The position numbers were made by a program, and so were the translations under genes. DNA of 64,000 nt from Marinobacterium mangrovicola (GTDB taxonomy: Bacteria > Pseudomonadota > Gammaproteobacteria > Pseudomonadales > Balneatricaceae): positions 186,001 to 250,000 of the forward strand of contig NZ_SMFU01000010.1 of assembly GCF_004339595.1 (NCBI RefSeq), in the 5' to 3' direction. Numbering within the stretch: the first letter of the stretch is position 1; each line of letters starts with the position of its first letter. The notes under the pieces are model-generated. The model saw nothing but the letters and a program-made list of their open reading frames with translations. It made no database searches and was not told the DNA's origin. Positions 1,820-34,488 of the stretch are shown here, piece after piece.

Positions 1820-3547
1820 TTAATTGAGACAGGTAAGCAGGTAGACGATCACCGCCGCCAGCAGTGCGCTGACGCCCTGCCAGAACTGCACCGGGTTGCG
1901 CTCGATCAGCGGTGGACGGGTGCGGTTGAGAAACGCCTGACCGGGTTTACGCAGGTCGTGGATAAACTCTGAAATCTCGTCATAGCGTTTGGCTGGATCG
2001 GGATTGAGTGCTTTTTTCAGGGTTTCATCGATCCAGGCCGGGATCTCCCGTTCGTCATCGAGGACCGAGTCGTACTGTAAACGCCGTTGTGACGCTCGAG
2101 TGCGGGCACGAGCCACCTGTGCGCCGTAGGGGAAACGTCCCGACAGCATCTGGTAGGCGATCACACCCAGGGAGTAGAGATCGGATGCGGGCGTACCCTG
2201 TTCTCCGAGGAAATACTCGGGGGCGGTGTAGAGCGCGGTGCCGAGAATATTGGGCTGCTCCTGGCCGATCAGGGTTTCATCGATACCGGCCACCCGGGTG
2301 GCGCCGAAATCGATAATCTTTACCGTGCCGCTGTTGTCGATCATCAGGTTATCGGGTTTCAGATCCTGGTGGACCATCTCCAGACGATGGAAGGCACGCA
2401 GGCCACGGGCGATCTGCTCAATAATATCGCGCACCTTTTCCAGCTCTGGTGCCGGGTTGTCGATCAGCCACTGGGCCAGGGTCTGGCCTTCGATGTACTC
2501 GGTCAGGGTGTAGAGGTAGTGTTTGGCGCCTGAGCTCTGCACTGCTTTCAGCACATGGGGGCTGTTCAGGCGCCTGGCGATCCACTCCTCCATCATGAAG
2601 CGCTCGAGATAGGCCTGGTCTTCGCTCAGGTCGATGGACGGTGTTTTCAGAATCACCTTCTCACTGCTGGCGTTATCCACCGCGAGATAAACATGGCTGC
2701 GGCTGGTGGCGTGAATCTCTCTGATGATCTGGAAACCGTCGAACTCTTCACCCGCTTCCAGGACCGGAGGCAGCGGCAGGCTGTCGACCTGCAGCGCCAG
2801 CGGGGCCTGTTCTGGCCGAGGCAGGTCATCCACGCGGACGATCTGCAGGCTCAGGTTATCGGGGCTGCCATGAGCGAACGCTTGCTGCACTATCGCCTCA
2901 GCGGCCCGGTCCAGGTTTTCCCGATGTTCGTTGATGGCGTAGAGGATAAAGGTGGCGTCCACATGCTCGTAAACACCGTCGGTGGCGAGCAGAAAGGTAT
3001 CGCCGATGGCCAGCGGCAGCGCCTCGTAATCAAGCTCTAGATAGTCGTCGATACCGAGAGCACGGCTCAGATAGCTCTCCTCCTGAGATATCCACAGACG
3101 ATGGTCCTTGGTCAGCTGCTCCAGACCGTTTTCCCGGGCACGGTAGATACGGCTGTCGCCGGCGTGAAACAGGTGGGCGGTGGTGCTTTTCAGCACCAGG
3201 GCGCTGAGCGTGCAGACATAGCCACGATCCTTGTCGTAGCGGTATTCGCTGCGCCGCGTCTGGGAATAAAGCCAGGAGTTGGTGGCCTGAATCACTCTTT
3301 CGGCAGCGGTTTTTACCGTCCAGGCATCGGAGGTGCAGAAGTAGTCATCGAGAAAGGATTTCACCGCGGCAGCGCTGGCGATCTGGCTGACATCGCTGGA
3401 ACTGATGCCATCGGCGATGGCCAGTGCAGCCCCTTTGAGCGTTAGCTGAGGCTCCTCAGGCACCATTACGCCGTGGAAGTCCTGGTTCTGTGCCTTCCGA
3501 CCCTTGTCGGAGTATTGGCCGATGCTGAGTGTCAGTTGGTTGCTCAT
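1820..3547 (-). CDS. Bifunctional PP2C phosphatase / Ser-Thr protein kinase
   Basis: A fusion of a PP2C-type phosphatase (about residues 1-240) and a eukaryote-like protein kinase (about 265-535), ending in one membrane helix near residues 555-573. Phosphatase metal-binding motifs are visible: IADGISSSD, HAGDSRIYR, LATDGVYEH and SPDNLSL. Kinase motifs are complete: VILK (lysine), HQDLKPDNLM (catalytic loop) and IIDFGA (DFG). One chain can therefore both add and remove phosphate on targets near the inner face of the membrane. It lies 77 bp behind the formate/nitrite channel gene on the same strand, so it is probably co-transcribed from the antiterminated nitrate leader. This pairing is known from nitrate assimilation loci of pseudomonads and relatives, but its substrate is not. 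All key residues are present, so both activities are likely. Confidence 0.9.
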   Translation of the reverse strand: MSNQLTLSIGQYSDKGRKAQNQDFHGVMVPEEPQLTLKGAALAIADGISSSDVSQIASAAAVKSFLDDYFCTSDAWTVKTAAERVIQATNSWLYSQTRRSEYRYDKDRGYVCTLSALVLKSTTAHLFHAGDSRIYRARENGLEQLTKDHRLWISQEESYLSRALGIDDYLELDYEALPLAIGDTFLLATDGVYEHVDATFILYAINEHRENLDRAAEAIVQQAFAHGSPDNLSLQIVRVDDLPRPEQAPLALQVDSLPLPPVLEAGEEFDGFQIIREIHATSRSHVYLAVDNASSEKVILKTPSIDLSEDQAYLERFMMEEWIARRLNSPHVLKAVQSSGAKHYLYTLTEYIEGQTLAQWLIDNPAPELEKVRDIIEQIARGLRAFHRLEMVHQDLKPDNLMIDNSGTVKIIDFGATRVAGIDETLIGQEQPNILGTALYTAPEYFLGEQGTPASDLYSLGVIAYQMLSGRFPYGAQVARARTRASQRRLQYDSVLDDEREIPAWIDETLKKALNPDPAKRYDEISEFIHDLRKPGQAFLNRTRPPLIERNPVQFWQGVSALLAAVIVYLLTCLN

Positions 3548-3624: not shown

Positions 3625-4476
3625 TCAGGCAGAAGCTGAACTGGGCTTAGCGGTAGCTTGCTGGGCTGCAACTTTGCGCTTGGCGCCGGTGCGGACGTGG
3701 GTGGTATACAAGGTCAGGCCGGTGAAGGCGAGACCGCCGACCAGGTTACCCAGCGCTGTGGGGATCTCGTTCCAGATCAGGTAGTCGGCCACGGAGAAGT
3801 CACCGCCCATAATCATGGCGAACGGGAACAGGAACATGTTGACTACGGAGTGTTCGAAACCCATGAAGAAGAACAGCATGATCGGCATCCACATCGCCAG
3901 TACCTTGCCGCTGACATGGGTAGAGATCATCGCGCCGACAACGCCCATGGAAACCATCCAGTTACACAGCATGCCGCGGATAAAAATAGTGATCCAGCCA
4001 TCGGCGCCGTAGGCGGCGTAACCGACGGTACGGGATTCACCGATACCGGCCACTTTCTCGGCGATGGCGCCGCCATCGGTGTTGTAGCCCATGGTGAAGA
4101 TGTAGGACATCATCACTGCCACGGTGAAAGCACCGGCGAAGTTACCTACAAAGACCAGGCCCCAGTTGCGCAGGATCTGTGACGGGGTTACGCCGGGACG
4201 TTTGTCTAGCCAGGCCAGCGGAGTCAGCATAAAGACGCCGGTGAGCAGGTCGAAGCCCATCAGGTAAAGCATGCAGAAACCCACCGGGAACAGAATCGCA
4301 CCGATGAGGAAAACGCCGGTCTGCACCGCTACGGTGACGGCGAAAACGGCGGCCAGTGCCAGAATTGCACCGGCCATGTAGGCGCGGATCAGGGTGTCAC
4401 GGGTGGACATGTGGATCTTGGATTCGCCTGCATCGACCATCTTGGTCACAAACTCGGAAGGGATCAGGTAAGCCAT
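3625..4476 (-). CDS. Formate/nitrite transporter family channel (NirC/FocA-like)
   Basis: An inner-membrane pentameric anion channel family member, 283 residues with six predicted membrane helices. The hallmark GFEHSVVNM motif near residue 208 carries the conserved central histidine of FocA/NirC channels. Its place behind a nitrate-sensing antiterminator argues for nitrite (or nitrate) rather than formate as the substrate; this is inference. The gene is preceded by a long leader with a sigma-54 promoter and a regulated terminator, so expression should need both nitrogen control and a nitrate or nitrite signal. The kinase/phosphatase gene follows on the same strand. The C-terminal tail is short, basic and rich in Ala/Ser. 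Confidence 0.93.
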   Translation of the reverse strand: MAYLIPSEFVTKMVDAGESKIHMSTRDTLIRAYMAGAILALAAVFAVTVAVQTGVFLIGAILFPVGFCMLYLMGFDLLTGVFMLTPLAWLDKRPGVTPSQILRNWGLVFVGNFAGAFTVAVMMSYIFTMGYNTDGGAIAEKVAGIGESRTVGYAAYGADGWITIFIRGMLCNWMVSMGVVGAMISTHVSGKVLAMWMPIMLFFFMGFEHSVVNMFLFPFAMIMGGDFSVADYLIWNEIPTALGNLVGGLAFTGLTLYTTHVRTGAKRKVAAQQATAKPSSASA

Positions 4477-4540: not shown

Positions 4541-4593
4541 AAAAAAAAAACGCCCACCTCCCGCCTTCTGTAAAAGAGGACGGGAGGTGGACG
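4541..4593 (-). terminator. Intrinsic terminator in nitrite-channel leader
   Basis: Read on the minus strand, a 13-bp stem (arms 4581-4593 and 4551-4563, closed by one G-U wobble that would be a mismatch on the plus strand) is followed at once by ten uridines (4550-4541). The strand-specific wobble and U-run show that it works on minus-strand RNA, about 65 bp before the channel start codon. Because it lies in a leader with ANTAR-type hairpins it is read as the regulated terminator of an antitermination switch. Confidence 0.9.
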
Positions 4594-4602
4594 CCGTTGT
4601 CC
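4589..4602 (-). promoter_or_regulatory. ANTAR target hairpin P2 (hexaloop)
   Basis: On the minus strand GGAC and GUCC pair around the six-base loop AACGGC, with A at loop position 1 and G at position 4, as in known ANTAR targets. Its 3' arm shares bases 4589-4592 with the 5' arm of the terminator stem, so P2 and the terminator cannot form together. That is the expected geometry for ANTAR antitermination. Confidence 0.75.
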
Positions 4603-4625
4603 GGAAACTCTCAGCTTGTTAGTCG

Positions 4626-4641
4626 GAGCCAACTCTGACTC
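4626..4641 (-). promoter_or_regulatory. ANTAR target hairpin P1 (hexaloop)
   Basis: On the minus strand a 5-bp stem GAGUC/GGCUC (one G-U pair) closes a six-base loop AGAGUU, again with A1 and G4. It lies 23 bases upstream of hairpin P2 and just downstream of the predicted transcription start. Two such hexaloops in tandem form the binding platform for an ANTAR protein dimer. Confidence 0.72.
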
Positions 4642-4657
4642 TGATAGGTAGAGCAAA

Positions 4658-4672
4658 GCAACCTGTGTGCCA
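4658..4672 (-). promoter_or_regulatory. Sigma-54 promoter of the nitrite-channel operon
   Basis: On the minus strand TGGCAC-ACAGG-TTGC matches the -24/-12 consensus, with exactly ten bases between the GG and GC doublets. Transcription would begin near 4646, directly before hairpin P1. A single NtrC-like half-site (TGCACCAAA on the minus strand, near 4756-4764) lies upstream, but a full NtrC palindrome is not seen. Confidence 0.8.
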
Positions 4673-4769: not shown

Positions 4770-6086
4770 CTAATTTTTGCGCCTGTTTGGAGCCCTGGTG
4801 GCTCCTTTAGCGCCGGCTTTAACCCGCTCGACATCGGCGATCACTTTTTCGGCCACATCGATCAGGCGTTTTTTCTGTGACATGGCGCTCTGTTGCAGGG
4901 TGCGGAACGCCTGCTCCTCATCCAGCCCCTGGTACTGCATCAAAAGACCCTTGGCGCGCTCCAGCAGCTTACGTTCAGACAACGCCTGACGCGCGGCGCC
5001 CAGCTCACTGCTCATCTGTTTGAGGCTTTCCGCCTGCTGCTGCACCAGGCCGTAGAGCGAGCGTACCCAGTCTGCGCTGCCGCTGGATCCGCTGGCAGGA
5101 AGGGGCGAGTTCACATCCAGTAGCATGGTCAGAGGAGAGGACGACGGGGTTTCCAGCGATTTTTCCAGGGATGCCAGGGTCTCGCGCTGGTTTTTCAGCT
5201 CATTGCTGGCCTGCTGTACGCGCTCATCACTCAACCTCTGCAGCAGTTCAGCCAGCTCCTGCTCAAGTGTCTGCATGGCATCGATACGCCGGGTTGCCAG
5301 GTCATACCAGACCTCGCTGAAATCCGGTGGCACGCCGGCACCGGGTTCCAGGCGGGCGATCACCTGGCGCAGACGCATGAATTCATGGGTTTCCGGTCGT
5401 TCCTGCAGTGCCTTCCAGGCTTCCAGCTGAGGTTCCAGGGCGAACTCCCGGAATGTGCTGAAGCAGTGCTCCTGAGCCTCCACCAGGTTGGTCAGGCGCT
5501 CCAGATGCTCGGCCTTGAACTCGCCGGTGGCGATGCCGCTGACGGTCCAGGCGCGCTCTTGGCCGGCGTACTCCTTGCCCTGCATCAGGTTGAACATCGC
5601 CACTAGCTGACGCGTGATCTCTGGATCATCGGAGATATCGGCCGCCTCGAAAATCACCCCCAGCAGTGACTCCATCAGCCGGCTATAAGCCTGGGTGCTC
5701 TCCTGGGCGCTCAGGGCACGTTTATCCACCGCCTGGCGCAGGCCAGGCAGTGCGTCTAAGCCATGCAGGACGTGAGCAAGATTGTTGAACAGGCGTGCGC
5801 GACCGGCGAGGGGGCCCGCTTCCAGGTCGAGTTGATCCAGCCCGGCACGAAATTCGGTTTCCGCCTGACGGGAGCTGTCCAGCTGAGCCAGGCGCTGGTC
5901 GCAGAGGCGAGTGCCGCCGGATGCCAGGTACACATTGGATAGACCGCGTTCCCGCTGCAGCTCATGGATCAGATTGCTGACCTGCGTGACCTGGGTACAA
6001 CTGGCCATTAGCTGCTTCAACGATGCGATTTCTGATCGTTTGGAGGCTAGAAAAAACTCCTCGATCCTTTGCTGGCTCTGAGGCAT
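4770..6086 (-). CDS. nasR: Nitrate-sensing NIT-ANTAR antiterminator (NasR-like)
   Basis: A cytoplasmic nitrate/nitrite sensor that binds leader RNA and prevents termination. The NIT sensor domain covers roughly residues 25-280 (family motif HELQRERGLSNVYLASGG), and the C-terminal ANTAR RNA-binding domain covers about 370-430 (LLERAKGLLMQYQGLDEEQA). The ATG at 6086 was chosen because a GGAG lies six bases upstream; this gives 438 residues, while reading from 6266 would add an atypical 60-residue extension. The next gene downstream on the same strand has a leader with two ANTAR hexaloops and a terminator, so the target is almost certainly that leader. NasR of Klebsiella is the studied relative. 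Nitrate reductase genes are not in the window. Confidence 0.88.
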   Translation of the reverse strand: MPQSQQRIEEFFLASKRSEIASLKQLMASCTQVTQVSNLIHELQRERGLSNVYLASGGTRLCDQRLAQLDSSRQAETEFRAGLDQLDLEAGPLAGRARLFNNLAHVLHGLDALPGLRQAVDKRALSAQESTQAYSRLMESLLGVIFEAADISDDPEITRQLVAMFNLMQGKEYAGQERAWTVSGIATGEFKAEHLERLTNLVEAQEHCFSTFREFALEPQLEAWKALQERPETHEFMRLRQVIARLEPGAGVPPDFSEVWYDLATRRIDAMQTLEQELAELLQRLSDERVQQASNELKNQRETLASLEKSLETPSSSPLTMLLDVNSPLPASGSSGSADWVRSLYGLVQQQAESLKQMSSELGAARQALSERKLLERAKGLLMQYQGLDEEQAFRTLQQSAMSQKKRLIDVAEKVIADVERVKAGAKGATRAPNRRKN

Positions 6087-6735
6087 GCGCGGCTCCATAG
6101 ACGATTTGCTTCGGGCAATTTGGCAGAGAATGCCACCCAGGGCTAATACAACAGCCTGGGTTCTCTCATTCAAACTTATGTCAAAAGCAGGGACTGCAAA
6201 AGCTCTGTTCGGTGCAAAACGGGTGCCGGATGCAAGAGATCTGTTCAGGGAAACGGGGACGGGCACTGATCCGGCTTTACGGTTTGAGCGTTAAACTGCA
6301 TAAGAGTGTTCCGAAAGTTGCTGACCGCGCGGTCAGAGAGCAGTGGATGCAAGGTTTCGGTTCAGCCAGACGCTGTGTGGGCAGGTATCTAGCAGCTGGT
6401 GGTCAGAAACAACGTGTGAGGATCTTTCTTAAATTGTTGATAGTTAATGTATTGTTTGCAGGATTTGCTGGGACCAAAGTATTGTTGAGCTGGTAACTGT
6501 TTTCAGATTAATCTTTATTTGATCCGGATTAATTGGAACGGCTATTGCTTTCCTTCTCTAATCTGTAATAAAGATGGTTGTAACAATAAATAGGTATGTT
6601 GGTTTTGCTTTCAACGTTGTTGCCCATCCGCAACCCGCATCAGGTGTTCGCATCCTCCGCATCTCACTTGACCAGCCCGGGCTGCAGTGCATATCTTGAA
6701 GACTTGTCCGATTTTTTATAACGCTGGGTGTTACC
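6087..6735. other. Divergent intergenic region
   Basis: About 650 bp separate the antiterminator gene from the cyclic-nucleotide-binding gene. The right half (about 6420-6600) is AT-rich and should carry the promoter of the rightward pair. No convincing gene, RNA or operator was recognised; short reading frames here lack a ribosome site and any family resemblance. Confidence 0.5.
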
Positions 6736-7888: not shown

Positions 7889-8542
7889 TTCTTCCCGACA
7901 AACACTAGCAAGCAGCTGACCGGTAGGCCCGCGCTACCGGAAACACACTGCCCAGTGCTCGCTGTTTCCCGCATCTTTGTTATTCCATCACTTTTTGCTT
8001 TTTCATCGATAGCCTGTCTACGCAGCCGCGCTGGAGATACCGTTGTTTAAACCTCAACCGATTCGGGTGGAAATGAGCGCTTCGGAATCGAAATTGCAGT
8101 CATCTGGGCGCAACACTTGAGCCCGATCATGACGCTGCCCTTACAGGCTTGGTAAACCTACGCGGGCTGCTCCTGCCTGGGCTTTGGCGTTCTATCCCTG
8201 GTGGCAATGCTCCGTCGTTATCGGGTGTTGCATAAAGGGATGCAGAAAATACACTAGCAGCCCCTGGCGAGATCAAACGTCTGTTTGCGCCGGGCCGCAT
8301 CAGCGTTATCCCGGGCCAGCCCCGAGGGTTTATAAGATTATGCGAAAAAGGCTCTATCAGAGTAATCGCGAATATGCGCAGAGCCTTTATACTGAGGCAT
8401 TCCCGTGCTGTTCGTCGCTTGGCCGTTATTGGCGTCAGGCCGAGCCAAAAGTTGTTTATCCGTGTGCCAGGCCTCTCCATAGCCGGCAAAGAGGGAAAGA
8501 GCCCATGGTGTTTTCATGGGTGAGTTAATACAGGGTTTTAGT
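7889..8542. other. Intergenic region before the glycan locus
   Basis: About 650 bp without a supportable gene. A 7-bp inverted repeat CCGGTAG/CTACCGG (7920-7940) lies just after the HD gene and may help end its transcript, though no U-run follows. The rest should include the promoter of the glycosyltransferase genes; open frames here have no recognisable family. Confidence 0.45.
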
Positions 8543-9751
8543 ATGACACAGCCGGAATCTCGCACACCCCGCCGCATTCTCATGTACAGCCACGATACCT
8601 TTGGGCTTGGACATCTGCGCCGCTGCCGTGCCATCGCTCACGCCATCGTTGATCGCTACAAGTCCGCTACCGTACTGATTTTGACCGGTTCCCCGATTAT
8701 CGGCAGTTTCAGTTTCAAGGCCCGTGTTGATTTCGTGCGTATTCCCGGTGTCATCAAGCTGCACAACGGGGATTACACCTCACTGAGCCTGCTGCAGGAC
8801 CTCAGTAACACCCTGGCGCTGCGGGAGTCTATCATCCGCCATACCGCAGAGGTGTTCGATCCCGAGCTGTTTATCGTCGACAAGGAACCGCTGGGTCTTA
8901 AGGGTGAGATCGAGCCGACGCTGGAGATGTTGACGGCCAAAGGTGTGCCCGCGGTTCTGGGCCTGCGCGATGTGCTCGATACGCCTGATCTGCTGGTGCC
9001 GGAATGGGAGCAGAAAAACGCCATAGCGGCGATTGAGCGCTATTACAGCAGGATCTGGGTCTATGGCGACAAGTCCATGGGTAACCCGCTGGATACGGTT
9101 CCCGGCCTTGAGCGTATTGAGTCGAAAATGCTCTATACCGGGTATCTGAGGCGTTCTTTGCCCAGCACCTATACATCGTTGAACCTGGAACAGGTGAAGC
9201 GCCCCTATATCCTGGTGACTCCGGGCGGTGGTGGCGACGGCATCGAAATGGTGGACCGGGTGCTTAAGGCCTATGAATCCGGCGCAGAGATGCCGCTGAA
9301 CCTGCTGATCGTGATGGGGCCCTTTATGCCCAGTGAGACTCAGGAGGCGTTTCAGCACCGCGCTGCGCAGCTCGATCAGGTCGGGATTATTACCTTTGAT
9401 AACTGCATGGAAGCACTGCTTCAGGACGCCAGTGGCGTGATCGCTATGGGTGGCTATAACACCTTCTGCGAGATTCTCTCGTTTGATAAGCAATCCGTGC
9501 TCTTGCCTCGTAAGGTGCCGCGGCAGGAGCAGTGGCTGAGAGCCAAAAAGGCCGAAGCCCTGGGGCTCGCCTGCTGTCTCGACCCCGACAGCCCCGACCT
9601 GGAGCAGGAGCTGCAGAGCGCGCTGAGCGAGCTGCACCTGAAGCAGGCGCCCTCGGGCAAGATGCCGCCCGGTTTTATGAGTGGCCTGGAGAAAATCTGT
9701 TTCGATCTGCAGGAACTGATGGATGTAGAGGATGAAGTAGTCTGTGGATAA
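8543..9751 (+). CDS. MurG/GT28-like glycosyltransferase (COG4671 type), first copy
   Basis: A predicted glycosyltransferase of the GT-B fold, 402 residues from the ATG at 8543 (an ATG nine codons earlier is possible). Typical elements are the N-terminal SHDTFGLGHLRRC loop, the central TPGGGGDGIEM glycine-rich nucleotide-sugar loop and the GGYNTFCEIL motif near the C-terminus, which parallels the donor-binding GGxxT/E region of MurG. No membrane segment is seen, so it should act on the cytoplasmic face. The next gene is a second member of the same family and overlaps it by 8 bp. Donor and acceptor are unknown; context indicates assembly of a surface or extracellular glycan. Confidence 0.78.
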   Translation: MTQPESRTPRRILMYSHDTFGLGHLRRCRAIAHAIVDRYKSATVLILTGSPIIGSFSFKARVDFVRIPGVIKLHNGDYTSLSLLQDLSNTLALRESIIRHTAEVFDPELFIVDKEPLGLKGEIEPTLEMLTAKGVPAVLGLRDVLDTPDLLVPEWEQKNAIAAIERYYSRIWVYGDKSMGNPLDTVPGLERIESKMLYTGYLRRSLPSTYTSLNLEQVKRPYILVTPGGGGDGIEMVDRVLKAYESGAEMPLNLLIVMGPFMPSETQEAFQHRAAQLDQVGIITFDNCMEALLQDASGVIAMGGYNTFCEILSFDKQSVLLPRKVPRQEQWLRAKKAEALGLACCLDPDSPDLEQELQSALSELHLKQAPSGKMPPGFMSGLEKICFDLQELMDVEDEVVCG

Positions 9752-10958
9752 AACGGCTCCGACACTGATGTTTTATGTCCAGCACCTGCTGGGCGTGGGT
9801 CATATCAAGCGTGCCTCGCTACTGGTTAAGGGCTGGCTCGACGCCGGCTTCAACGTCTGCGTTGTGAGCGGCGGTGAACCTGTGCCGCTGTTCAATTTCG
9901 ATGGCGCTGAGCTGGTACAACTGCCGCCGGTGAAAACGGCTGATGCGGCGTTCAGTGCTCTGGTCACCGAGGATGGAGAGCCTCTGGATGAGGCGTTTCG
10001 AGAGCGTCGGCGCAACCAGCTGCTTGATACCTTCTCCGCGGTTCAGCCCGATCTCCTGGTGATCGAAAACTATCCCTTCGGCAGACGTCAGCTGCGCTGG
10101 GAGCTCAAACCGCTGCTGGAGATGGCTTCGAGCGCCGAGAAACGGCCACTGATCGCCTGTTCGGTGCGCGATATCGTGCAGGCACGCAAGCCGGAGCGGG
10201 TGGCTGAAACGGTTTCCCTGATCGAACGCTATTTTGACCTGGTGCTGGTGCACGGCGACGGCCGTTTTGTCCCCTTTGAAAGCAGTTTTCCCGCGGCTGC
10301 CGAGATCGCTGACAAAATCCGCTATACCGGTTATGTCACCGACGCTATCGCCTCGTCTGATGCGGTGGATGAGGCAGTGGAGGGCGAAGGTGAGGTACTG
10401 GTCTCCAGTGGTGGCGGTGCCGTTGGCTTTGGCCTGATGCGGGCGGCAATGGATGGTCGCAGCCAGACCCTGCTGGCCCACAACACCTGGCGTTTTCTGA
10501 TGGGGCCGAATCTGCCCGCCATGGAGCGCGCGGAGCTGGAGCAGGGAGTTAAACCTGGTGTGATCGTTGAGCCGTCTCGCCCGGATTTTCCGGCGTTGCT
10601 GACCCGCTGCGGTTTGTCGATCTCCCAGGGCGGTTACAACACGGTGATGGACCTGCTGGTTGCCCGGTCACCGGCGGTTATTGTGCCGTTCGAGGGGGAG
10701 GGCGAAACCGAGCAGCTTGAGCGCACCTCGAAACTGGCCCAGTTTGGCTTGTGCGCCATGGTCCGGGAGCGAGATCTGACGCCAGAAACCATGGCGCAGG
10801 CAGTGGACCGTGCTGTCGCTCTGCACCCGGAGCAGGTGGATATCGATCTGCAGGGTGCTGCGCACTGTGCGCGGCTGTTGAGTGAGGCGTTGGCAGGCCG
10901 GCAAACGCTAAAGTCAGAGGGCAAGTCAGAGAGCAAGTTGGAGACCCTGGGTGGCTGA
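9744..10958 (+). CDS. MurG/GT28-like glycosyltransferase, second copy
   Basis: A second GT-B glycosyltransferase of the same kind as its upstream neighbour, 404 residues with a GTG start inside the preceding gene. The same landmarks appear in order: VQHLLGVGHIKRASLL at the N-terminus, VSSGGGAVGFGLM in the centre and ISQGGYNTVMDLL near residue 295, followed by an acidic FEGEGETEQLERT segment. The two copies differ widely, so they are old paralogues probably adding different sugars. It overlaps the next gene by 8 bp, which makes the three rightward genes one transcription and translation unit. The specific reaction cannot be read from the sequence. Confidence 0.78.
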   Translation: MDKTAPTLMFYVQHLLGVGHIKRASLLVKGWLDAGFNVCVVSGGEPVPLFNFDGAELVQLPPVKTADAAFSALVTEDGEPLDEAFRERRRNQLLDTFSAVQPDLLVIENYPFGRRQLRWELKPLLEMASSAEKRPLIACSVRDIVQARKPERVAETVSLIERYFDLVLVHGDGRFVPFESSFPAAAEIADKIRYTGYVTDAIASSDAVDEAVEGEGEVLVSSGGGAVGFGLMRAAMDGRSQTLLAHNTWRFLMGPNLPAMERAELEQGVKPGVIVEPSRPDFPALLTRCGLSISQGGYNTVMDLLVARSPAVIVPFEGEGETEQLERTSKLAQFGLCAMVRERDLTPETMAQAVDRAVALHPEQVDIDLQGAAHCARLLSEALAGRQTLKSEGKSESKLETLGG

Positions 10959-11700
10959 TTGGAAAGCGCTGGAAACGGAATTGGCGTTATGGAGTGAGTC
11001 CGGCAAGCAGGCGACGCTCTGGTGGCGTGACGATGATGCGGAAAGACCCAGCGCCGCGCTGGAGCAGTTGATCGCACTCAGTGACCGCTTTCAGGTACCG
11101 CTGGCGCTGGCGACCATCCCGGCTGGAGCAGAACCCGAGCTGGCGCTGAGAGTTCAGCAGGCGAACGCTGTCAGCGTTCTGCAGCACGGTTTTTCTCATA
11201 TCAGCCATGCCCCTGCCAGTGAGCGTAAATGTGAACTGGGTGATAACCGTCCGCTGTCGGATATTACGGCAGAGCTGAATCAGGGCCAGATAAAACTCGC
11301 CGGGCTGTTCGGCGATCTGTTCCTGCCGGTGCTGGTTCCGCCCTGGAACCGTTTAAGCCAGCAGGTGATCGAGTCGCTGCCGGAGCTTGGGTTTATCGGT
11401 CTCTCCACGCTGGGGCCGCGCAGTCTTGAGCAGGGTATTCTCACCGAAGTGAATGTGCACGCCGATCTTATCAACTGGAAGGCGGGGCGCTGCTTCGCCG
11501 GTGAAGCGCGGGCGCTGGGACAGATCATTACTCATCTGCAGCAGCGCCGCCTCGGCGAAGTGGATAGCCGTGAGCCCACAGGGGTGATGACCCATCATCT
11601 GGTGCATGATGAGGGTGTCTGGGCGTTCCTGCCCAAGCTCTTCGATCTGACGCGAAAGGCCGGCGCGCGCTGGTGTGCGGCGAAAGAGATCTTCAGCTAG
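10951..11700 (+). CDS. Polysaccharide deacetylase-like protein
   Basis: A 249-residue protein of the NodB-homology type. The metal-binding start of the domain is seen as LWWRDDDAERP (Asp-Asp), the HxxxH pair as QHGFSH near residue 80, and a later PPWNR motif near residue 130 matches the arginine-containing motif of this family. A C-terminal HHLVHDEGVW may carry the last catalytic histidine. It would remove N- or O-acetyl groups from the glycan made by the flanking transferases. No signal peptide is seen, which is unusual for an extracellular deacetylase and hints at action on a cytoplasmic intermediate. Start is GTG, overlapping the second transferase gene. Confidence 0.72.
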   Translation: MADWKALETELALWSESGKQATLWWRDDDAERPSAALEQLIALSDRFQVPLALATIPAGAEPELALRVQQANAVSVLQHGFSHISHAPASERKCELGDNRPLSDITAELNQGQIKLAGLFGDLFLPVLVPPWNRLSQQVIESLPELGFIGLSTLGPRSLEQGILTEVNVHADLINWKAGRCFAGEARALGQIITHLQQRRLGEVDSREPTGVMTHHLVHDEGVWAFLPKLFDLTRKAGARWCAAKEIFS

Positions 11701-34129: not shown

Positions 34130-34488
34130 TGGTGGAGGTGGCGGGTTTCGAACCCGCGTCCGCCAATCCTCTGCCTCGAGATCTACATGCTTAGGCTGCT
34201 CTATTAGGTTAACCCGTCACGACCCGAGAGCCAGGGCGTTGTGGGCGAGCCCTTTTAGTTTTAACCGTTCAGCTTAGGGCGAAGCATCCAGGCGATTCTG
34301 TCTCGAATGACACCGCTAACCTCTGAGTTACAGACACCTTAGAGTGCGGCGCTAGCAGACTTAAGCTGCTAGAGCGTAGTTATCGTCGTTTGCAACTATA
34401 ACTAGTGTGATGAGGGATTTACGAGAATCATCACGTTCTCGGCATGCACCCAAGGGTTCGTAATCGGCGTCGAAGCCAAGTCACCCCC
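34130..34488 (-). ncRNA. ssrA: tmRNA (transfer-messenger RNA)
   Basis: A 359-nt tmRNA. The 5' end GGGGGTG pairs with CACCTCC before the encoded ACCA, giving a seven-pair acceptor stem with one G-U. The TTCGAAACCCGCC T-arm lies near the 3' end. The tag frame (34393-34361) reads ANDDNYALAA followed by a stop, the usual gammaproteobacterial degradation tag with the LAA recognised by ClpXP. It frees stalled ribosomes together with SmpB, whose gene lies 56 bp upstream on the same strand. Confidence 0.97.

Follow-up and report, generated by a model that had tools for sequence, protein, structure and literature searches.

Here, the minus strand of the window (the whole stretch of 64,000 nucleotides that was analyzed) was found to carry, at 4672-4541, a leader that very probably constitutes a two-key nitrate/nitrite switch, in which transcription would start at a sigma-54 promoter and would be carried into the downstream genes by NIT-ANTAR antitermination. 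The leader has the NIT-ANTAR gene on its 5' side and the gene of a formate/nitrite-family (FNT) transporter on its 3' side. It is a real feature: the elements ascribed to it in a preliminary description are all present, and its anatomy, its conservation, the covariation of both of its folds, its co-occurrence with ANTAR genes and its gene context are observed directly. The features are as follows.

6213-6228, minus strand: candidate sigma-54 site CGGCACCCGTTTTGCA, one mismatch, 131 nt upstream of the ATG at 6098
4770-6098, minus strand: NIT-ANTAR (NasR-like) antiterminator gene (PF08376, E 1.8e-57; PF03861, E 1.7e-18)
4779-4793, minus strand: weak NtrC-like site GCTCCAAACAGGCGC (score 7.0 of 9), which lies within the 3'-terminal part of the NIT-ANTAR gene and is the best in the approximately 430 bases upstream
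4657-4672, minus strand: sigma-54 -24/-12 promoter TGGCACACAGGTTGCT with GG-N10-GC, read from the sequence, predicted +1 at about 4646
4623-4644, minus strand: hairpin P1, UCAGAGUC[AGAGUU]GGCUCCGA, loop 4636-4631 with A1 and G4, stem of 8 positions including an A-C mismatch
4589-4602, minus strand: hairpin P2, GGAC[AACGGC]GUCC, loop 4598-4593 with A1 and G4, 4-bp stem, putative ANTAR binding site
4551-4593, minus strand: intrinsic terminator stem-loop, computed fold with a 13-bp stem (4593-4581 with 4563-4551)
4541-4550, minus strand: ten-U run ending the terminator, read from the sequence
3625-4476, minus strand: FNT transporter gene, first after the leader (PF01226, E 5.9e-66)
1820-3547, minus strand: fusion gene of a PP2C phosphatase and a Ser/Thr kinase, second in the presumed operon (PF13672, PF00069)

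The preliminary description had placed on this strand a sigma-54 site with exact GG-N10-GC spacing, a start near 4646, two hexaloop hairpins and a ten-uridine terminator overlapping the second of them, and the sequence bears it out: the site lies at 4672-4657, the +1 is predicted from its position, the loops AGAGUU and AACGGC have the correct coordinates, and the 5' arm of the terminator, which is common to the 3' arm of P2, begins at the final base of the P2 loop. The NIT-ANTAR gene described as lying just upstream ends at a stop at 4770, and its NIT and ANTAR domains are both above cut-off. The promoter TGGCACACAGGTTGCT is the sole zero-mismatch match to TGGCACN5TTGCW within the 64-kb window, and a sigma-54-like site scoring 10/12 occurs in 0.1% of shuffled upstream stretches. 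A terminator scan allowing only loops of 3-8 reported zero terminators in the window.

Conservation was analyzed in leaders of related genomes. The initial set of 33 leaders came from a script applied to NIT-ANTAR relatives, an A..G.. loop, a stem of at least four pairs and a T run being required, and the conservation of the T run among them is thus by selection; L016, a duplicate of L002, and L001, the same as L015, were left out. The first alignment (alignment A1) holds 29 leaders, L009, L011, L012 and L013 being taken out, and the terminator stem played no part in the picking. Because a paired loop with A1 and G4 had been required, the invariance of P2 and its 100% pairing in this alignment are partly by selection, and the case for P2 rests instead on the matches of a search model, R1, and on a more varied set of 31. 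In R1 the terminator stem is modelled and P2 pairing is not, but the model was trained on the first alignment, which had been picked for the paired A1/G4 loop. From its 81 matches in the fetched loci (set A2), four opposite-strand partial matches lacking P2 were set aside, leaving 77, and the nrtA leader of the window genome (L081, minus strand), which the R1 search missed, was added by hand to give the 78 leaders examined. For the sigma-54 and P1 counts, L074, L078 and L092, which have no A1/G4 P2, were excluded (75 leaders), and L099 and L109, without GG-N10-GC within 140 bases, were dropped as well (73 leaders).

All four P2 pairs are kept in 73 of the 77 full R1 matches, and A1 together with G4 in 74 of them; P2 shows 21 two-sided changes with 98.7% of the cells paired in these matches (0/500 shuffles), and 19 two-sided cells over five pairs with 88.4% paired in the varied set. 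The terminator covaries likewise, with 48 two-sided cells (0/500 shuffles) and 10 pairs with two-sided changes in the first alignment (n = 29), and with 86 two-sided cells among the terminator-model matches of the varied set. P2 and the terminator are exclusive helices with one strand in common, and the covariation of both is what an antitermination switch predicts. G4 of the P2 loop also pairs within the terminator in the first alignment, so its conservation does not stem wholly from protein contact. When the growing chain was folded with RNA-alone energies, P2 was predicted at lengths of 58 to 92 nt and was replaced by the terminator at 97 nt. Upstream, GG-N10-GC is present in 73 of the 75 leaders with an A1/G4 P2, and 71 of these 73 have a sigma-54 score of at least 8/12, as compared to 3.3% of shuffled stretches, the sigma-54 and NtrC scores being simple identity counts controlled by mononucleotide shuffles. 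The reading as a sigma-54 promoter with an ANTAR leader is thus upheld by comparison among relatives, in which P2, its loop and the terminator overlap are conserved and covarying and in which the leader tracks ANTAR genes over 116 genomes.

The expectation that both hexaloops would be conserved in relatives held for P2 and its overlap with the terminator, but not for the A1/G4 loop of P1, which is absent from the nearest relative. A1 and G4 do occur in both loops of the window, as had been noted, but they are not a conserved requirement: a P1-region hexaloop with A1 and G4 was detected in 22/73 leaders as compared to 2.7 expected from shuffles, and in relatives it therefore appears real yet not general. 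The remaining 51/73 leaders, the nearest relative included, argue against the switch model. In the nearest relative the P1 loop is AGTAAT, which lacks A1/G4 and takes the form of a GUAA loop when folded, and A1/G4 is likewise missing from P1 in all three sister leaders within the window genome. The computed folding energy of the window P1 also argues against the model, since a four-base GAGU loop formed via an A1-U6 pair is predicted to be favored over the open hexaloop (-7.4 vs. -6.5 kcal/mol).

The linker between P1 and P2 amounts to 20 nt in the window and to 15-42 nt across the 22 leaders with an A1/G4 P1, whereas 5-12 nt are given for the eut leaders (PMC3369931), so that the window leader exceeds the short linker. 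In the accessible parts of the reports on EutV, a 14-nt linker sharply cut induction (PMC3369931) and a 20-nt linker extension abolished antitermination (PMC8934654); by analogy, the linker of the window would speak against the switch model. However, 5-12 nt is a rule of EutV, and the search model of 2012, as described in the part of that paper available, had a variable linker (PMC3369931), so a short linker does not define the family. By eye, no alternative P1 closer to P2 was found in the window. Among 368 other gammaproteobacterial genomes, ten NIT-ANTAR loci were found, seven of them with a match of at least 31 bits to a second model, R2, and an A1/G4-looped P1 was seen by eye in six of these seven matched leaders; the loss of the A1/G4 loop from P1 in the host's family therefore looks secondary. 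Either NIT-ANTAR proteins span longer linkers, or a single hexaloop is enough. Between promoter and P2, a GACAA box occurs in 11/73 leaders (4.0 expected), ten of them having it 15-19 nt before P2; these ten are L082 (3290-3330), L081 (minus strand, near 10040), L058, L063, L065, L067, L075, L086, L087 and L088, and neither a structure nor a function was found for this box in the leaders.

With regard to nitrogen control, a single rpoN match was found in the window genome, along with one ntrC match exceeding the cut-off. An NtrC-like site GCAC-N7-GTGC scoring at least 8 of 9 precedes 38 of the 72 leaders for which the required 150 upstream bases were available, as compared to 1.6% of shuffles. 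The site before the window leader is weak, its 7.0 being reached by 16% of shuffles and insignificant alone, and the sister leaders score 9.0 (nasA), 8.0 (nirBD) and 6.5 (nrtA, 42% of shuffles). The low values at the window and nrtA leaders tell against the switch model; the nitrogen-limitation arm consequently rests on the sigma-54 site, and direct NtrC control of the window leader is suggested by the leader set.

The open frame of the NIT-ANTAR gene extends to a GTG at 6266, and homology to the nearest relative begins at the ATG at 6098 (match from residue 57). The protein shows 83% identity to its nearest named relative, from Marinobacterium lutimaris, so that the window probably comes from this genus or a close neighbor of it, and was matched over both domains by the structure of Klebsiella oxytoca NasR (4akk, E 3.7e-47). 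In this alignment (numbering offset 27), the RNA-contact residues R340, K341, K347 and E359 of NasR and its predicted ligand-pocket residues E175 and R176 are kept, and K345 is replaced by R. Three further positions of RNA contact in NasR are changed (F for W362, Q for R366 and K for N373), which by sequence comparison would argue against the switch model. A sigma-54 site of at least 9/12 lies upstream of 29 of 38 NIT-ANTAR genes as compared to 3.8% of shuffles; it scores 10 in the window and 9 in the nearest relative, and it is located about 40-55 nt upstream of many of these genes, the distance in the window being unusually long. The frequency of such sites suggests that the sensor and its targets share one mode of nitrogen control; in the accessible part of a survey, sigma-54 promoters were predicted for ANTAR-COG genes (PMC12316311). 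In four loci (L031, L032, L034 and L035) leaders flank the NIT-ANTAR gene on both sides, and in L032, L034 and L035 the second leader (L093, L106 and L089) stands before a gene for uroporphyrinogen methyltransferase, whereas in L031 it (L085) stands before nasA.

The gene context of the leaders is that of nitrate and nitrite assimilation: nitrate, nitrite or siroheme genes lie downstream of 76 of the 78 leaders from relatives and the window genome. The next gene encodes FNT in 26, NrtA in 18, NirB or a NirB-like protein in 11, a flavoprotein in 6, NasA in 5, an NrtC-like protein in 5, uroporphyrinogen methyltransferase in 4 and NarK in 1, the two remaining leaders being L076, without an identified gene, and L094, at a contig end. 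The FNT-kinase gene pair follows 26 of the 78 leaders. The transporter had been called a nitrite channel, of which the FNT family (PF01226) stands, whereas the protein falls under the NCBIfam cut-offs for FNT, FocA, FocB and NirC and the FocA models outscore NirC; the name nitrite channel therefore comes from context.

The circuit is not only local, as the window leader is one of four in its genome, which precede the FNT-kinase genes, nasA, nirBD, and the divergent nrtABC and flavoprotein genes. Model R2 scored them at 65.1, 52.8, 50.7 and 41.3 bits, with the window leader highest and the next match at 23.2 bits; since R2 was trained on all four, these scores are by construction and show only that there is no fifth leader near them. 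R1, which was not trained on the nirBD, nasA and nrtA leaders of this genome, recovered those of nasA (E 7.8e-4) and nirBD (E 0.028). As the genome has a single ANTAR match, one sensor probably serves a dispersed regulon.

Within the host's family, R1 leaders were found in 45/116 genomes and an ANTAR match in 78/116. An ANTAR gene is present in 44 of the 45 leader-positive genomes, and one of the 38 ANTAR-negative genomes has a leader; in this exception (G009) one leader starts at a distance of 212 bases from the end of its contig, and a neighboring gene could be lost there. Among the 40 matched genomes, 29 are NIT-ANTAR-positive and the other 11 match the NIT part alone, and 27 of the 29 have a leader. 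The Fisher p values for co-occurrence, 2e-9 for ANTAR and 2e-12 for NIT-ANTAR, are overstated because the genomes are related by shared ancestry and the effective sample is smaller. Conversely, R1 detected no leader in 34 of the 78 ANTAR-positive genomes, which counts against the switch model as far as model matches tell.

Following this, we propose that, when nitrogen is limiting, RNA polymerase with sigma-54 would initiate near 4646, NtrC being its most likely activator, and that by default an RNA of about 105 nt would form the terminator, transcription ending in the U run. The NIT-ANTAR protein with bound nitrate or nitrite would bind the P2 hexaloop as it emerges, perhaps aided by P1; P2 would stay closed, the terminator would be deprived of its 5' arm, and the polymerase would proceed into the genes of the FNT transporter and the kinase. 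Probably this NIT-ANTAR protein also works on the leaders of nirBD, nasA and the divergent nrtABC. The steps that we infer here are protein binding, the ligand, control by NtrC and the co-regulation.

A narrower form of the same idea keeps the sigma-54 promoter and the ANTAR leader and lets P2 alone matter, P1 being a generic hairpin or a remnant and a single hexaloop being sufficient for action. It would account for a near-universal P2 beside an A1/G4 P1 in 22/73 leaders, for the many P1-region folds with three- to five-base loops and for linkers of 15-42 nt, and in the accessible part of the NasR report P2 alone is bound, more weakly, at about 12 uM as compared to 1 uM for P1P2 (PMC7496416). 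The 22 A1/G4 loops are far beyond the 2.7 expected by chance, however, and such a P1 was seen by eye in six of the seven leaders from other Gammaproteobacteria and is retained in the window, so that we regard action through P2 alone as unlikely. That the NIT-ANTAR protein acts on the other leaders and the window leader obeys a different factor is suggested by little beyond the fact that co-regulation is deduced; as the sole ANTAR match of the genome adjoins the window leader, the top scorer of the four, this appears most improbable.

The known parts could also be a plain sigma-54 promoter followed by an ordinary attenuator or a transcription-end hairpin, with no ANTAR control: promoter and terminator would look alike, and NtrC alone could give a nitrogen response. 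This would leave the near-invariant A1/G4, the covariation of P2 and the co-occurrence with ANTAR genes unexplained, even if G4 is also paired in the terminator, and we give it hardly any credence. Finally, the terminated leader might be a trans-acting small RNA with antitermination being secondary. A Pseudomonas relative is listed by Rfam as the sRNA P11, which the window matches with only 19.7 bits at a gathering cut-off of 70, and papers, as far as their accessible parts go, connect a Pseudomonas P11 sRNA with worm behaviour; by contrast, constraint falls on promoter, P2 and terminator, each six-base word shared in the stretch from promoter to P2 occurs in at most 13/73 leaders, and 76 of the 78 copies stand directly before pathway genes, which makes a small RNA very unlikely.

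With the two-key switch as the preferred reading, a broader proposal is put forward tentatively: in the host's family the dual-hexaloop rule might be relaxed, NIT-ANTAR and related proteins using a near-universal P2 together with a P1 that is distant, variable or generic, over linkers at which EutV action would be abolished. One NIT-ANTAR protein, itself expressed from a sigma-54 promoter, might then drive a dispersed nitrate regulon of four operons in the manner of a feed-forward AND gate.

In the search of Rfam at gathering scores, a tmRNA gene (34130-34488, minus strand) was the sole match in the window and two tRNAs were the matches in 20 relative loci; neither P11 nor the narK RNA reached its gathering cut-off in the window or in these loci. 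A 25.1-bit match to the SR6 antitoxin (cut-off 55) and the remaining sub-threshold matches, apart from those to P11 and narK, were dismissed as chance. Elsewhere in the window, two adjoining genes with a glycosyltransferase family 28 C-terminal domain, followed by an open frame without Pfam match, occupy 8516-11700. The P11 family (RF00625), which we take to be the same RNA as the Pseudomonas nirBD leader NalA, has a consensus that opens like a sigma-54 site and contains an AUAGAA-looped hairpin and GGAC-AAAGGC-GUCC, the linker read from it being about 3 nt as compared to 20 nt in the window. The consensus of the Rfam narK RNA (RF03032) resembles the window in having a sigma-54-like site, an AACGGC hairpin and then CGAC-AAAGAC-GUCG, with a linker of about 7 nt as compared to 20 nt; the window matches this family with 19.3 bits (cut-off 43.2). 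In the narK RNA, AACGGC sits on an annotated stem and AAAGAC lies between the complementary CGAC and GUCG, only the first hairpin being annotated. The consensus sequences suggest that the narK RNA and P11 are promoter-plus-leader forms of one element, and a literature search found, among the papers listed, no statement of the narK RNA as a promoter with an ANTAR leader. One NIT-ANTAR-linked leader (L124:2027-2160) scores 39.2 of 43.2 bits for narK and 34.3 of 70 for P11.

Leaders of this kind are already known, as those of Pseudomonas nirBD and of the NtrC-dependent Klebsiella nasF have been described before. For Pseudomonas nirBD, initiation by sigma-54 and NtrC together with ANTAR antitermination was reportedly described by Romeo et al. 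in 2012. A literature search, with most subscription papers outside its coverage, found, among the papers listed, none on an ANTAR leader from Marinobacterium. The dual-hexaloop leaders of Enterococcus faecalis eut are similar to the window in carrying A1/G4 loops and a P2 that overlaps the terminator (PMC3369931, PMC8934654), whereas EutV is a response-regulator ANTAR protein without the NIT domain of the window regulator and the accessible parts of these papers make no mention of a sigma-54 promoter at eut. Regulons of several ANTAR leaders had already been predicted, according to the available part of the 2012 study (PMC3369931). K. oxytoca nasF and NasR, compared by description in the accessible passages, share with the window a one-component NIT-ANTAR protein, two A1/G4 hexaloop hairpins and nitrate-dependent terminator read-through (PMC7496416, PMC3369931). 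NasR serves one operon, nasFEDCBA, as compared to four leaders here, and SELEX with NasR gave a C-G pair closing each loop (PMC7496416); both loops of the window are closed by a C-G pair. The Pseudomonas nirBD leader NalA also combines a sigma-54/NtrC promoter with ANTAR antitermination, and by analogy with the accessible descriptions the AND-gate logic of the window leader would be the same (PMC12830290, PMC3973561), whereas in Pseudomonas the regulator NasT is held by a separate sensor, NasS, and the window encodes a NIT-ANTAR protein. The window thus would extend the Pseudomonas AND gate, with a Klebsiella-type NasR sensor, to another lineage, and its relatives provide a natural series of leaders with varying P1 loop and linker and a nearly fixed P2, which makes it testable whether ANTAR antitermination needs a pair of hexaloops with constant spacing or can do with one.
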